64,000 bases of DNA. Origin: Gemmatimonadota bacterium. GTDB taxonomy: Bacteria; Gemmatimonadota; Gemmatimonadetes; Longimicrobiales; Gaopeijiaceae. Below the pieces are notes generated by a model. It did not search any database. It was not told the DNA's origin and saw nothing but the letters and a program-made list of their open reading frames with translations. This document shows, in pieces, positions 1 to 55,634 of this stretch (positions are counted from its first letter, which is position 1; each line of letters begins with the position of its first letter). The stretch is from positions 1 to 64,000 of the forward strand of contig DQPL01000100.1 of the NCBI GenBank assembly GCA_015664885.1, in the 5' to 3' direction. The translations under genes and the position numbers were made by a program.

Positions 1-500
1 AGGCACCGGGTCGAAGGGCCATGCCAACGGCAGAAAAAAGCTGGGATCGGTCCAACAGCGGCAATATCTTCCGCCTGCACACGATCCGCAACGTATCCAC
101 GGGCCGCCTAAGGAGAGGGCGCCCGCCGGCCGACCCGGCACTCAAGCCTCCGAACTCGTTGCACCTCATGACCATCGTGCCGTAGCGGGTATGTACGGCG
201 GGAGGCTCCCAAAAGCAGGTGCGCTACCGAAGCGACAGGGATTCCTGCTCCCGCTCATGCAGCGTGCGGTCCCCAGGCTCCAAGGGCCGGTACGTGGAAG
301 TGTTGCTGCAGGAGCAGCGTAGGGAACCTGGACGGGAAGTGCCTGTTGCCGCCGTGCCCTACCAGAAGCGGCCTTGGGAGGTGCGAGCGTCCCAACATTC
401 GTCCCAACATCCCCTCCTCAGGACCCTCTCTCGTACCAGCTCCACACCCCCCTTTTGGGTACCAAGAAGCCCCCCAGGCCAGTGACCTGGAGGGCGAAGA
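1..500. other. No gene recognised
   Basis: Open frames here are short and none resembles a protein family. I compared the stretch with SRP RNA, tmRNA and RNase P RNA hallmarks from memory and found no convincing match. A GCTGC/GCAGC hairpin near 312-325 is visible, but no tRNA T-arm occurs before 510. It may be leader or trailer sequence of the tRNA cluster. Confidence 0.4.
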
Positions 501-582
501 CGGAGCGCGAGGGATTCGAACCCCCAAGCCCTTTCGGGCGCTCGCTTTCGAGGCGAGTGCAATACCATTCTGCCAGCGCTCC
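501..582 (-). tRNA. tRNA-Ser(CGA)
   Basis: Type II tRNA with a 7-bp acceptor stem, long variable arm and T-loop TTCGAAT. The anticodon loop CTCGAAA gives CGA, decoding UCG. The discriminator is G, as usual for serine tRNAs. CCA is not encoded. It is the promoter-distal end of the minus-strand cluster. Confidence 0.95.
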
Positions 583-702
583 AAACAGCAAAGCCCGGCT
601 ACCCGAGGGCAGACCGGGCGGAAGCCTCCGCGCCTCGAGCTCGAACAGTGCGTTCGAATCCGGGCGATATCAAGAAACCGCCGCCTCCGGCGGCACTACC
701 AA

Positions 703-776
703 TCGGGGCGCCCGGATTCGAACCGGGGACCTCTGCGACCCGAACGCAGCGCTCTACCGGACTGAGCCACGCCCCG
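703..776 (-). tRNA. tRNA-Pro(CGG)
   Basis: Perfect 7-bp acceptor stem CGGGGCG/CGCCCCG and anticodon loop TTCGGGT, so anticodon CGG decoding CCG. Discriminator A. The complete cloverleaf is visible on the minus strand. Confidence 0.95.
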
Positions 777-799
777 GAACCAACTCGGGTCAATCAATG

Positions 800-950
800 T
801 ACGGACGGGTTGAATTGACCTCGCTTCGCTCGGTCGTCTCGCGGAAGTGCCTTCCCGGGCATCTCCCTACCCACTTTTGCCGCTCGACCCGAACCCACTT
901 GGTGATCTTCTGCGAAGATCACGTGGGTTCGAACGCTTTCGGTTATCAAT
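800..950. repeat. tRNA-Ser-associated palindromic repeat, copy A
   Basis: About 125 nt (810-934) are shared with a second copy at 1088-1214. Both contain CGCTCGGTCGTCTCGCGGAA on the left and a long imperfect palindrome on the right. In this copy the palindrome spans 890-931: CGAACCCAC, spacer, GTGATCTTC, TGC loop, then the complementary arms. The arms include the tRNA T-arm core GGGTTCGA. The element lies between a degenerate copy of the 3' end of the adjacent tRNA-Ser(GGA) (ACGGACGGGTTGAATT, from 801) and the true 3' end (from 952). It therefore looks like an insertion or duplication at a tRNA 3' end. Confidence 0.75.
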
Positions 951-953
951 CAA

Positions 954-1037
954 CGGACGGGGTGGGATTCGAACCCACGCGGGCGTGAGCCCACACGATT
1001 TCCAATCGTGCGCCTTAAGCCACTCGGCCACCCGTCC
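954..1037 (-). tRNA. tRNA-Ser(GGA)
   Basis: Type II tRNA with acceptor GGACGGG/CCCGTCC, anticodon loop TTGGAAA (GGA, decoding UCC/UCU), long variable arm and G discriminator. Its 3' end abuts repeat copy A. Confidence 0.95.
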
Positions 1038-1076
1038 ACGACCCTTGGTGCCGCGGAAAGGGCAGCAGACTACTTC

Positions 1077-1241
1077 AGCGGAGGGAGTGGAATGGACCTC
1101 GCTCCGCTCGGTCGTCTCGCGGAACAACCTCTTGGGATCATTCCGCTCCCGATCTGCCGCTCGACTCGAACCCACTCTGTGATCTTCTGCGAAGATCACG
1201 TGGGTTCGAACCCCATAATCATTCTTGCTTCGTGCTTTCAG
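1077..1241. repeat. tRNA-Ser-associated palindromic repeat, copy B
   Basis: Second copy of the element at 800-950. The shared left block is at 1088-1124 and the palindrome at 1167-1208, with a perfect GTGATCTTC/GAAGATCAC inner stem, TGC loop and CGAACCCAC/GTGGGTTCG outer arms. It is flanked by AGCGGAGGGAGTGGAAT (from 1076) and by the matching 3' end of tRNA-Ser(GCT) (from 1240). The copy thus sits between a partial and a complete tRNA-Ser 3' end, as copy A does. The middle segments of the copies differ, while the palindrome loop-side arms are identical, which suggests selection on structure. Confidence 0.75.
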
Positions 1242-1325
1242 CGGAGGGAGTGGGATTCGAACCCACGCGGTGTTGCCACCAACGCCTTAGCAGGGCGCCG
1301 CCATAAGCCACTCGGCCATCCCTCC
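1242..1325 (-). tRNA. tRNA-Ser(GCT)
   Basis: Type II tRNA with acceptor GGAGGGA/TCCCTCC and anticodon loop CTGCTAA (GCU, decoding AGC/AGU). It has a G discriminator. Its 3' end abuts repeat copy B. Confidence 0.95.
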
Positions 1326-1350
1326 AAGCGGAGGCAGGAGCCTCCTGTAA

Positions 1351-1423
1351 TTGCCCCGCTAGGGATCGAACCTAGACTCTCCGGAACCAGAATCCGGCGT
1401 GTTGCCAATTACACCACGGGGCA
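1351..1423 (-). tRNA. tRNA-Gln(CTG)
   Basis: Acceptor TGCCCCG/CGGGGCA starts with U1-A72, as is typical of bacterial tRNA-Gln. The anticodon loop TTCTGGT gives CUG. The T-arm CTAGG/CCTAG closes a TTCGATC loop. Discriminator A. Confidence 0.93.
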
Positions 1424-1428
1424 ATAAG

Positions 1429-1501
1429 AGCCACCAGTCGGATTTGAACCGACGACCCCGTCATTACGAGTGACGTGCTCTACCAACTGAGCTATGGTGG
1501 C
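1429..1501 (-). tRNA. tRNA-Thr(CGT)
   Basis: Acceptor GCCACCA/TGGTGGC, anticodon loop CTCGTAA (CGU, decoding ACG) and T-loop TTCAAAT. A full cloverleaf is present. Confidence 0.95.
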
Positions 1502-1512
1502 GATCCCGTAAA

Positions 1513-1585
1513 TGGAGCCGAGGGGAATCGAACCCCTGACCTCAGCGTTGCGAACGCTGCGCTCTCCCAACTGAGCTACGGCCCC
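1513..1585 (-). tRNA. tRNA-Ala(CGC)
   Basis: Acceptor GGGGCCG/CGGCTCC contains the G3-U70 wobble pair that is the alanine identity element. The anticodon loop TTCGCAA gives CGC (GCG codon). Discriminator A. Confidence 0.95.
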
Positions 1586-1597
1586 CCTTGTTCTCCA

Positions 1598-1671
<74 letters not shown>

Positions 1672-1698
1672 GATCCTTCGAAACCCAGAGTCCGTTAA

Positions 1699-1772
1699 CG
1701 CGCCCGGAGGGATTCGAACCCCCGACCTCCTGGTCCGTAGCCAGGCACTCTATCCAGCTGAGCTACGGGCGC
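1699..1772 (-). tRNA. tRNA-Arg(ACG)
   Basis: Acceptor GCGCCCG/CGGGCGC and anticodon loop CTACGGA. The genomic anticodon is ACG, whose A34 is normally deaminated to inosine by TadA to read CGU/CGC/CGA. Discriminator G. Confidence 0.95.
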
Positions 1773-1817
1773 TCACAGCAAAACCAACCTGCATCCCTCG
1801 CCAGGTGCGGCGAAGAG

Positions 1818-1901
1818 TGCCCACGACAGGACTCGAACCTGTACGCCGTTTCCGACACTGGTCCCTCAAACCAGCCTGTCTACCAATTCCAGCACGTGGG
1901 C
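1818..1901 (-). tRNA. tRNA-Leu(GAG)
   Basis: Type II tRNA with long variable arm, acceptor GCCCACG/CGTGGGC, anticodon loop TTGAGGG (GAG, decoding CUC/CUU) and discriminator A. Confidence 0.95.
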
Positions 1902-1940
1902 GACACCGAGACCGTCCAGACCGCGCAGACGGACCAGCAA

Positions 1941-2025
1941 TGCTCGAGGAGGGACTCGAACCCTCACGGGGTTAACCCCCACAGGGTCCTGAACCCTGCG
2001 CGTCTACCAATTCCGCCACCCGAGC
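1941..2025 (-). tRNA. tRNA-Leu(CAG)
   Basis: Type II tRNA with acceptor GCTCGGG/CTCGAGC (one G-U pair), anticodon loop TTCAGGA (CAG, decoding CUG), a strong variable-arm hairpin and discriminator A. Confidence 0.95.
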
Positions 2026-2055
2026 GCAGCACGGGCCTACCGACCCGGTCCAACA

Positions 2056-2128
<73 letters not shown>

Positions 2129-2195
2129 CGCACACACGACCTGGAAGCCGACACCTTTACGGCACCTGCCGACTTCATATGTCAATCAACTCCAG

Positions 2196-2269
2196 CGGGG
2201 CTGACGAGACTCGAACTCGCGACCTCCGGTGTGACAGACCGGCACTCTAACCAACTGAGCTACAGCCCC
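2196..2269 (-). tRNA. tRNA-Asp(GTC)
   Basis: Acceptor GGGGCTG/CAGCCCC, anticodon loop CTGTCAC (GUC), T-loop TTCGAGT and discriminator G as expected for aspartate. Confidence 0.95.
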
Positions 2270-2307
2270 TACGTGTCCTGCTGTTCTACATGACCTCCAC
2301 CTGCGCA

Positions 2308-2379
2308 TACCCCGGCGGGGAATTGAACCCCGATTACCAGGTTGAAAACCTGGCGTCCTGACCATTAGACGACCGGGGC
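2308..2379 (-). tRNA. tRNA-Glu(TTC)
   Basis: Acceptor GCCCCGG/CCGGGGT, with a wobble pair at 1:72, and anticodon loop TTTTCAA (UUC). The D-arm GTCT/GGAC is typical of tRNA-Glu, as is the short variable loop. Confidence 0.93.
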
Positions 2380-2393
2380 TCTCATCCGATCGA

Positions 2394-2466
2394 CAGGCCC
2401 GGAGGGAATCGAACCCCCAACCGCCGGTTTTGGAGACCGGTGCTCTACCAATTGAGCTACGGACCT
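2394..2466 (-). tRNA. tRNA-Trp(CCA)
   Basis: Acceptor AGGTCCG/CGGGCCT, anticodon loop CTCCAAA (CCA) and discriminator G. It is a complete cloverleaf with a canonical tryptophan body. Confidence 0.95.
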
Positions 2467-2509
2467 ATTCTTTAATCTCGCTCAAGTCAGCCTTGCCCAC
2501 GAGCGAAAA

Positions 2510-2582
2510 TGGCCAGGGGCAGAATCGAACTGCCGACACCATGATTTTCAGTCATGTGCTCTACCAACTGAGCTACCTGGCC
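2510..2582 (-). tRNA. tRNA-Phe(GAA)
   Basis: Acceptor GGCCAGG/CCTGGCC, anticodon loop CTGAAAA (GAA) and discriminator A. A terminator-like hairpin with a U6 tract ends only five nucleotides before its 5' end. Confidence 0.95.
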
Positions 2583-2587
2583 CAGAC

Positions 2588-2623
2588 AAAAAACCCGCCC
2601 AAGCCTTAGAGGGCGAGGGCGGG
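2588..2623 (-). terminator. Intrinsic terminator between tRNA-fMet and tRNA-Phe
   Basis: On the minus strand a perfect 7-bp stem CCCGCCC/GGGCGGG (2617-2623 with 2594-2600) is followed directly by six U residues (2588-2593). It would end the transcript that carries the initiator tRNA. It leaves almost no room for a separate promoter in front of tRNA-Phe. Confidence 0.75.
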
Positions 2624-2781
2624 AAGCTGCGAGAGGAGCCGATGCTACGGCGCCCCCGCTCCCGCCCGCCTTCGCGGGCTCCACGTATCAGTGACCGTCC
2701 AGATACTCGATGTCAGCACTACATCTCCTGGGTCATCCTAACGTGGGAAACGCCGCCCGACGGCGGCGCTTCGCGAGCCTA

Positions 2782-2855
<74 letters not shown>

Positions 2856-3059
2856 ACAGAGATGAGGAAGTTATACGACCGCCCAACCGGCGGTCAACCC
2901 GCTTGTGCGGTCGCACAGGCAGTCATCGGATACGCCCTTTCACAGGACAACATCGGCGCATGGGGCCACTCTCCTTAGCACAACATTCGCGGTTCTCAAG
3001 ACACTTCTCACGGGCTGGAGTTGAGGGCGCCCCGACCCGCGTATACCTTTGGCTCCCTT

Positions 3060-3133
3060 CGGGACGTGGCGCAGCCCGGTAGCGCACTGCAATGGGGTTG
3101 CAGGGGTCGCCGGTTCGAATCCGGCCGTCCCGA
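3060..3133 (+). tRNA. tRNA-Pro(GGG)
   Basis: This is the only plus-strand tRNA of the region. It has acceptor CGGGACG/CGTCCCG, anticodon loop ATGGGGT (GGG, decoding CCC/CCU), T-loop TTCGAAT and discriminator A. A strong terminator follows 14 nt later, so it is a single-gene unit. Confidence 0.95.
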
Positions 3134-3146
3134 TAGATGGAAGGTG

Positions 3147-53019: not shown

Positions 53020-53924
53020 TCAGACGATGAGAACACTGCTCGTGGGCGGAAGGCCGTCGGCGAGACGATCCCAAGTACGGCCGCCGTCTGTCGACACATA
53101 GACGTTCCCAGCCTTGTCGGCGATGGCGAGCGCTGAGGCGCGAGTGGCGATGCAGCCTGTGTCGGCGATGCCGTCGAGCCATCTCGGCAGAGCGCCACCC
53201 AAGTGCACAAGCGGATCACCAGCATCCAGCGGGCGTCGATACACCGCGCCTTTCGTAGCAAAGTGGTCGGTGGCGGCGGAAACAAGAATGTCGTCGCCTG
53301 AAAACGCTACCGCGGAGCAATACGACGCATGCAGGCCGGCATGCTCGACCGTCCAAGTGGCGCCAGCATCCACGCTCACGCAGAGGCCGATCGCCGCTGC
53401 CGCAGTCACGACGCCCGGACGTGTGGGGTGCGCGCGCGCACCTCGTGCACGTCACTCTCGACGTCGATGGTGGGTTGCCACGTCTCACTGCCGTCCGTGG
53501 ACCTCGAAATACCCCCGACGTGAACGTTGGCAAGCAACACGCCCCCGTCCGAAGTCGCGGTCATCGAGCGCATCGCCAGCGGCGGACCGAGCAGTTGACC
53601 GTCCACGAGTACCGAACCCGCGTAGCACGATTCTCGGCCCGGCGCGGCGTCGAAGCCGGCGAGCCGCTCAACCTCACCGCTCCCGTGGATGCGCAGGAGG
53701 TGTGCATCCTCGGTGCCGACGTAGATGACGTCCCCCACGGCCACCGAGCATTCCAGTTGAAGCTCGCTCGTGGCGACGCAACTCCACTCGCCTTCGGAGT
53801 TGCGACGATAAAGAGAGTGGCCACCAACGATGGCGAGCGCGCCTCCCCGTCCGTCGGCCGCGAGCTCTCCGACTGCTTCACCAGCTAACTCGTGGCGGCG
53901 GCCCCCTTCCGTGAGCACGAACAC
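53020..53924 (-). pseudogene. BNR/sortilin-like propeller gene with frameshift
   Basis: Two overlapping frames form one propeller protein. The distal frame gives VATSELQLECSVAVGDVIYV, GGISRSTDGSETWQPTIDVE and SDVHEVRARTPHVRAS before UGA. A GUG in the shifted frame (53409) continues as TAAAAIGLCVSVDAGATWTV, YCSAVAFSGDDILVSAATDH and AIADKAGNVYVSTDGGRTWD. Asp boxes STDGSETW, SVDAGATW and STDGGRTW lie in series, as expected for one chain of about 300 residues. A one-base shift near 53408 separates the parts. The N-terminus is closed by UAG at 53934-53936, so the start is also lost. Confidence 0.6.
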
Positions 53925-54186
53925 GCCATGGTCCTAGGTCGCTGCAAGTACTGTCGGGGGCGTCATCATGGACCATGTGATACGAAGGACGGCCACGCTT
54001 GGCTATGCCCTCAATGGATTGCAGACGTGCACAGCGTCGACGATCCGTGGCACGTCATCCCCAGGCAATCTCCACAGGACTACATAATGGACAAATACCC
54101 GCTTACCCCCCCATGTACCTTTGGCGTTCGTGATAGGTCGTTCAGCAAGAGAGCACCAACGTTTCGATAGCAGGGAAGGGTATCGC

Positions 54187-54651
54187 CTAGGCCGCCACGA
54201 TATCCGCCGTCCACGTAATCTCCACCGAATCCTTGATGCTCTGCGCCGTCGGACACTTGCTCACGTGCGTCTCCAGAGCACGATCCACCTTGTCCCGCGG
54301 TGCATCTGCGGGCAGACGCAGCGTGTAATACACATGGATCTTCGTCAGCAAGATGATGCGGTCTACGACCTCATTCGTGCCCTCCGCTGTACAGCTGATG
54401 GCGTCGTTCGCTACCTGAATCCCGCGCACTTCCAGTGCGCCGTTGAGAGTCCCGAGTAGTCAGCCGGCTGCGGCTGCGACCAGGTAGTCAACCGGAAGCG
54501 GTAGGTCGGGCTGCGAGTCGAGTCCGTAGTGGGCCTTGATCGGCCCATGCACGCCCATCTCAAGGGCGGTTCCGTCCTCGAGCGTCGCCCGCCGATGGAG
54601 GCCGTCGATCTTCGCGACCGTCGACCGAGTGGTGTACAGCGCCTCACTCAT
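54187..54651 (-). CDS. OsmC-like peroxiredoxin with in-frame UGA (candidate selenoprotein)
   Basis: Reading UGA 54462-54460 as selenocysteine gives one 154-residue OsmC-family protein, the family's usual length. The N-terminal part runs MSEALYTTRSTVAKIDGLHR to PVDYLVAAAAG, then residue 64 (U), then LLGTLNGALEVRGIQVAND. The second family cysteine follows in HVSKCPTAQS (Cys133). In OsmC/Ohr proteins the residue after the AAAAG helix start is the peroxidatic cysteine, so UGA replaces exactly the catalytic residue. A SECIS-like hairpin follows (separate entry). ATG 54651 has GAGGAG six bases upstream. The second half has no start of its own with a ribosome site. It would reduce organic peroxides in the cytosol. 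It ends an operon with yfiH and a small cysteine protein. Confidence 0.8.
54424..54440 (-). promoter_or_regulatory. Candidate bacterial SECIS after UGA of the OsmC-like gene
   Basis: On the minus strand UGA 54462-54460 is followed after 19 bases by the perfect stem GCGCACT/AGTGCGC with apical GGA. The loop begins 26 nt after the UGA and its first base is G. This satisfies the spacing and loop rules of bacterial SECIS elements, which recruit SelB during translation. The hairpin lies wholly within the coding sequence GALEVRG. Confidence 0.7.
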
Positions 54652-54660
54652 GGCATCTCC

Positions 54661-54885
54661 TCAGTCTGTGTCTTCAGCATATCGCGTCCAAGGATCGGCC
54701 CCACCGGGCTCATAGCCCTTGCAGTCGATCACCGGGAGCGGTGGGTACTTCGGGAACTGTGCATCGTCCTTTGCTCGGCCACAAAGATAGAAGCGCGATC
54801 GTTTTCTGTTTCCGGTCACCCTGTGATGCAGGCAGTCCCGGCATTGGCCGACCGAGTCGAAGTCGCTGATGTCACCGGGCTTCAT
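54661..54885 (-). CDS. Small conserved cysteine-rich protein
   Basis: A 74-residue protein with a likely zinc or redox site: CRDCLHHR near residue 15, FYLCGRAKDD near 33 and VIDCKGYEP near 53. The phrase FPKYPPLPV is characteristic of a small conserved family of unknown function found in several phyla. Its ATG overlaps the stop of yfiH (ATGA) and the OsmC-like gene starts nine bases after its own stop. Three proteins are therefore made from one transcript. Function unknown. Confidence 0.75.
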   Translation of the reverse strand: MKPGDISDFDSVGQCRDCLHHRVTGNRKRSRFYLCGRAKDDAQFPKYPPLPVIDCKGYEPGGADPWTRYAEDTD

Positions 54886-55634
54886 GCGCGGATTCCTATG
54901 TATCCAACCTGCCGTTCACGGTCGCCGCCGCGATGCGAGAACAGCCCGCTCTCGCCGCAGCGAGTGCAGTGTTCGGACACCGTGATCTGGTCCTGCGCAA
55001 CGCCAGCATCCACCGCTCTCTGAGCGAGCACGGCGCGCAGGTCGATCGGCGCGGGATTGGCGGGCACTGGTTGCTCCAGTGCCTCGAACACTTCGCTTCC
55101 TACTTCGTAGCAGTCCCCGCAGATCGCTGGGCCCAGATGCAGGTGAATACGAGCCGGGTCCGAGCCGACACTCTCCTGCATGACCTCCAGACCCCGTTCG
55201 AGCACGCCTGATGCGGCTCCGCGCCAACCCGCGTGCAACGCGGCCACCGCGCGCTTCTTCGGGTCGACGACGAAGATCGGCACGCAGTCAGCGGTGCTCA
55301 CGCCGACGAGTACGCCGGCCTCAGCAGTCACGTGCCCGTCACAAGTCTCGCATATGTGCAGACCCGGCGGCCCCGGTAGGTGGAAGCGCACGTTAGCACC
55401 ATGTACTTGCTGCGCGTGCACGACGCGCGTCTGGCCAGTGGCTGCGCGGAGGCGCTGCCAATGCTCGAGCACGTGTCGGGCCGGTGAAGCGTCGCTGAAG
55501 AGACCCAGGTCGAACGGCCGCTCCGGTTCGGGCCCCCGGGTAGTGCACCCCTGGATCAGCCAAGGAAAAGCCGCCCTCCAAGGCGCATGCACGAGGGCGG
55601 GCGGCGCGTCGATAGAGACCTCGCGGACCTTCAT
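54882..55634 (-). CDS. pgeF: Laccase-domain purine nucleoside phosphorylase (YfiH/PgeF)
   Basis: A 250-residue YfiH family protein with the three zinc-site motifs VSTADCVPIFVVDP, VAALHAGWRGAASGVLERGL and LGPAICGDCYEVG. The family signature CTRCGESGLFSHR lies near the end. Members act as broad purine nucleoside phosphorylases or correct peptidoglycan errors. ATG 55634 follows AGGAG. It heads an operon with the small cysteine protein and the OsmC-like UGA gene, divergent from sucA. Confidence 0.9.
   Translation of the reverse strand: MKVREVSIDAPPALVHAPWRAAFPWLIQGCTTRGPEPERPFDLGLFSDASPARHVLEHWQRLRAATGQTRVVHAQQVHGANVRFHLPGPPGLHICETCDGHVTAEAGVLVGVSTADCVPIFVVDPKKRAVAALHAGWRGAASGVLERGLEVMQESVGSDPARIHLHLGPAICGDCYEVGSEVFEALEQPVPANPAPIDLRAVLAQRAVDAGVAQDQITVSEHCTRCGESGLFSHRGGDRERQVGYIGIRA

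Follow-up and report, generated by a model that had tools for sequence, protein, structure and literature searches.

The minus-strand locus at positions 54187 to 54651 raises the question of whether a UGA codon lying between two halves of an OsmC domain ends translation or is read as selenocysteine (Sec). Such genes are easily lost in annotation, since UGA is taken as a stop. The original prediction for the window (the whole 64,000-nucleotide stretch of DNA analysed here) described two OsmC halves in the same frame split by UGA only. This was borne out: the UGA is the sole interruption between the ATG and the TAG (Table 1), and translation with TGA read as U gives a 154-residue product in which a single PF02566 domain runs across the codon (residues 50-147, 50.9 bits against a cut-off of 27.5). 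The ribosome site proposed for the upstream half and the intact second Cys were also found. In the alignment to 1vla and 1ukk, residue 64 corresponds to the first catalytic Cys of the fold and Cys133 to the second, and two further OsmC proteins of the same genome (L001 and L002) carry Cys at the residue-64 position, so that the placement of the UGA at the catalytic Cys holds. The PF02566 score, the predicted fold (1ml8, 1nye) and both catalytic positions (U64/C133) place the product in the OsmC/Ohr superfamily. Among the other UGA-interrupted ORF pairs listed in the window, inspection by eye revealed no second candidate.

Table 1. Features of the predicted OsmC-type selenoprotein locus (positions in the window)
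Feature	Position	Strand	Description and basis
Predicted OsmC-type selenoprotein gene	54187..54651	(-)	154 codons followed by a TAG stop, with a single in-frame UGA; start ATG at 54651, stop TAG at 54189-54187, from sequence
GGAG ribosome site	54657..54660	(-)	5 nt 5' of the ATG; from sequence
UGA, predicted Sec, residue 64	54460..54462	(-)	first catalytic Cys position; homologue conservation and Cys alignment
Cys133 codon	54253..54255	(-)	second catalytic Cys of the OsmC fold, KCP motif; 1vla/1ukk alignment, invariant in alignment A1
Predicted SECIS hairpin	54424..54440	(-)	stem 54440-54434 / 54430-54424, loop 54433-54431; fold, synonymous freeze, covarying pairs
74-codon ORF with four Cys	54661..54885	(-)	directly upstream of the predicted OsmC-Sec gene

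A scan of GTDB genome contigs recovered 43 homologues with 50-82% identity, nearly all titled Gemmatimonadota, and TGA was present at the site in 43/43 (the codon-by-codon table covers 42 of them; L030, outside the table, also has the UGA). Unrelated residues at position 64, which would have spoken against the original prediction, were thus not found in close homologues. In a profile search of 395 Gemmatimonadota genomes, the window family was detected in 115, with exactly one in-frame TGA in 150 of the 150 matches listed. These matches form two score groups, A (the window type) and B (the type of a second OsmC gene, on contig C109), often with two copies in one genome, and a recheck of the six genomes with the weakest matches found TGA in each again. 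A TGC or TGT form of the window branch was absent among the homologues examined, and Cys homologues all fall outside it, including L147, a distant full-domain match without a stop whose genome lacks a strong tRNA-Sec. No relatives were detected in viral, plasmid and phage collections. Two copies encoding an identical protein (L047 and L049) are located in a MAG titled Deltaproteobacteria (RHO3_bin_65), which is probably a misnamed or mixed Gemmatimonadota bin.

These data bear directly on the idea that the locus is a pseudogene, or a sequencing error, with the UGA as a nonsense mutation in an OsmC gene. A domain left intact apart from one in-frame stop does have the look of a young pseudogene, but all 43 homologues, drawn from many assemblies, share the stop at this codon, each of the listed phylum matches has one TGA, and the downstream half is conserved as protein, with an invariant KCP motif. 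Because the UGA is conserved across genera and families, this explanation can be set aside as having practically no chance of being correct.

The presence of selA, selB, selC and selD elsewhere in the genome, proposed earlier as a check, was confirmed for all four. The assembly (3.96 Mb, 99.3% complete) contains selA (545 bits), selB (327 bits), selD (381 bits) and a tRNA-Sec of 93 nt with anticodon UCA (68 bits). The selD gene (L022, contig C51) has its own in-frame UGA, in the motif GTGUACK, and the SelD of this genome is therefore predicted to be itself a selenoprotein. Since the window gene, SelD and the second OsmC gene all carry UGA, the organism would have at least three UGA selenoprotein genes. 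Across the phylum, a strong tRNA-Sec match (E 1e-9, a threshold chosen for this analysis) was found in 108 of the 115 genomes that carry the gene versus 172 of the 280 that lack it (Fisher p 5e-12, a value that ignores relatedness). The seven genomes with the gene and no strong tRNA-Sec match are drafts, and the missing tRNA is plausibly explained by assembly incompleteness.

The hairpin downstream of the UGA was evaluated separately. Its geometry is as originally described: a perfect 7-bp stem (GCGCACU/AGUGCGC) that begins 19 nt past the UGA, closed by a GGA loop at 26 nt. This satisfies the bacterial SECIS model of a 4-16 bp stem and a loop of 3-9 nt whose first two positions include G, located 16-37 nt after the UGA (PMC13188914). 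The fold z-score is only -1.3, and an Rfam scan of positions 53900-55000, down to E 1, returned no SECIS family. In this GC-rich DNA, 22 of the 1547 window TGAs (1.4%) are followed by a stem of at least 7 bp under the same spacing and loop rule; the presence of a hairpin alone is therefore weak evidence, and its rarity was rejected as a sole argument.

Comparison among relatives is far more informative: the hairpin is conserved and its pairs covary, which places it far above chance. Codons +7 to +13 past the UGA (GGC GCA CTG GAR GTG CGC GGG) exhibit synonymous change at 0.064 of expectation, the lowest rate among 139 gene windows, for which the median is 0.85. The family consensus is a 6-bp stem with the loop UGGAR, and in the counted set, which excludes nine of 70 extra loci that escaped the search pattern, the UGG loop start is always kept; of 76 distinct sequences, 56 have A-U at stem pair 5, 17 have G-C and one has G-U. 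The change from A-U to G-C at this pair occurs in both branches and in several families, and within the window branch a G on one side pairs with a C on the other (p 9e-7, ignoring relatedness). In L067, Ala-Leu-Glu-Val has become Val-Leu-Glu-Ala, that is, Ala72 and Val75 are swapped, two stem pairs are replaced and the stem is intact, a neat example of a protein sequence dictated by the structure of its RNA. This stem is not kept in register in two distant B-type paralogues (L100 and L102). Judged from these substitution patterns, the hairpin is under selection at the RNA level.

This selection also weighs on the proposal that UGA is reassigned genome-wide to another amino acid, or read through without selenium, either of which would fit a frame that is open when UGA is counted as a residue. 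Nevertheless, the full Sec pathway is present, including a tRNA-Sec with anticodon UCA, the 74-codon ORF upstream of the gene terminates at UGA, and the in-frame UGA aligns precisely with the catalytic Cys, which, together with the constraint on the hairpin, makes this proposal very improbable, if slightly less so than a pseudogene.

UGA conservation, the genomic machinery and RNA-level selection thus support the candidate selenoprotein proposed for this locus, and the probability that the product is a redox protein of the OsmC fold, with selenocysteine inserted at UGA 64, is put at about 95%; the case is strong because of the comparative data and not because of a hairpin in a single sequence. 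For such a protein, ribosomes would start at the ATG, SelA would make Sec-tRNA-Sec from selenophosphate supplied by SelD, and the hairpin, about 20-38 nt past the UGA, would tether SelB with GTP and Sec-tRNA-Sec, leading to insertion of Sec in place of termination. Like OsmC proteins in general, the product would probably form a dimer; Sec64, which sits on the long central helix, would make the attack and Cys133 would resolve, in a route passing through a selenenic acid and then a Se-S bond. The likeliest chemistry would be the thiol-dependent reduction of a peroxide or of another electrophile.

An AlphaFold2 model built with 19 homologues (pLDDT 93.8) has as its closest solved structures YhfA of E. 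coli (1ml8), OsmC (1nye) and Ohr proteins, the lowest E-value being that of 1ml8, the E. coli crp-region protein. An OsmC fold that pairs Sec64 with Cys133 points to a reductase that depends on selenium and forms a Se-S intermediate, and peroxide is a plausible substrate for it. Of the earlier claim of a functional peroxide-reducing selenoprotein, the fold and both catalytic positions stand, while the peroxide-reducing part is weakened by the residue at the position of the Ohr catalytic Glu. In Ohr proteins, the residue ten positions before the peroxidatic Cys is a catalytic Glu. This Glu is missing from its usual place here, the alignment to 1ukk putting Val54 there, and peroxidase activity is therefore uncertain. 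The adjoining residue, Asp55, is an invariant acid, also placed so in two Cys proteins of this phylum, L002 and L147, an arrangement that resembles COG1765/YhfA-type proteins. To our knowledge, the substrates of proteins of this type are unsettled.

These observations open an alternative that concerns function only and overlaps with the preferred reading, namely a true selenoprotein that is not a peroxidase, in which a YhfA-like OsmC protein would act on another thiol, a persulfide or an electrophile. In addition to the Val54/Asp55 arrangement and the best fold E-value, it is favoured by the filing of a catalogued OsmC selenoprotein under COG1765 YhfA (PMC9312934). However, a Sec at this site would suit the reduction of peroxides well, and an Arg of the N-terminal strand, Arg20, is invariant in alignment A1 and could act as the Ohr Arg, although the region lies outside the alignment to known Ohr proteins. 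A non-peroxidase function is accordingly a substantial possibility, somewhat short of an even chance.

OsmC selenoproteins as such are not new. The statement in the original prediction that they had been reported from marine metagenomes was confirmed: three Sargasso Sea sequences with the motif UxxT, known since 2005 (PMC1088965), and five from the GOS survey (PMC2398784), and the group stands in recent catalogues (PMC9312934 and PMC13188914), whose main texts make no mention of Gemmatimonadota. The marine proteins (PF02566/COG1765) resemble the window protein in having Sec within an OsmC domain and, immediately past the UGA, a predicted bacterial SECIS, but the window branch has UxxG (ULLGT or UMLGT) instead of UxxT, belongs to Gemmatimonadota and has no Cys form found. 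The Ohr/OsmC hydroperoxide reductases (1ukk, 1nye and 6eb4) match the predicted fold with TM-scores of about 0.7-0.8 and share the two catalytic Cys positions, whereas the window protein has a predicted Sec for the first Cys, Val54 at the position of the Ohr Glu and an identity of about 12-20% to them. The closest curated model, NCBIfam NF041052 (OsmC_like_Se), has the same fold and aligns over residues 50-148, but the window protein scores 36.4 bits against a cut-off of 95, which none of 150 phylum genomes reaches, and the model is a better fit for different OsmC proteins in the phylum, most of which have no stop. Branches A and B therefore lie below the cut-off of the OsmC selenoprotein model, even though 115 of the 395 genomes searched in this large environmental phylum carry them. 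Standard annotation may, as originally suggested, split such a gene in two. The kind of protein is known, and the Gemmatimonadota branch looks separate, uncovered by the model and set apart from the marine proteins by their described motif.

The second OsmC gene of the genome (L004:1348-1812 (+), contig C109, protein P0002) has a UGA at the matching position (U65) and a GC-only variant of the window hairpin. Genes of its type constitute a separate paralogous branch in many Gemmatimonadota. A third clade (C) surfaced in the NF041052 search, with members L155-L159 in genomes G076, G111, G145, G114 and G077; these have UGA at the same site, in the context U-T-S-M or U-M-S-M, and their hairpin is conserved. 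Two-Sec OsmC genes were considered in G076 and G111 and rejected, the second TGA lying at the C-terminal end of the domain and being taken as an ordinary stop. In a tree of 30 proteins, rough because of its long branches, clade C groups with the Cys proteins L151 and L002, apart from A and B (99/99). Since clade C groups with Cys proteins, the use of Sec has probably been gained or exchanged more than once in the OsmC superfamily within this phylum. The fuller scenario, to which we give even odds, is that A and B form a Sec-only OsmC branch, fixed wherever it is found in Gemmatimonadota and made up of two old paralogues with no surviving Cys form, that clade C arose from a Cys relative by a separate gain of Sec, and that the substrate may not be peroxide. 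The lack of a Cys form of A and B suggests that sulfur is a poor substitute for selenium in these branches.

The four-Cys ORF directly upstream of the window gene had no Pfam match, and it was found directly upstream in part of the relatives and not upstream of others. It is likely a co-transcribed partner of the OsmC-Sec gene, possibly an electron or metal partner. A fusion of the two through a second UGA was rejected, as the ORF lies in another frame in several relatives and runs over the start of the OsmC gene in L034. Elsewhere in the window, positions 499-3134 contain a cluster of 18 tRNA genes, 17 of them on the minus strand.
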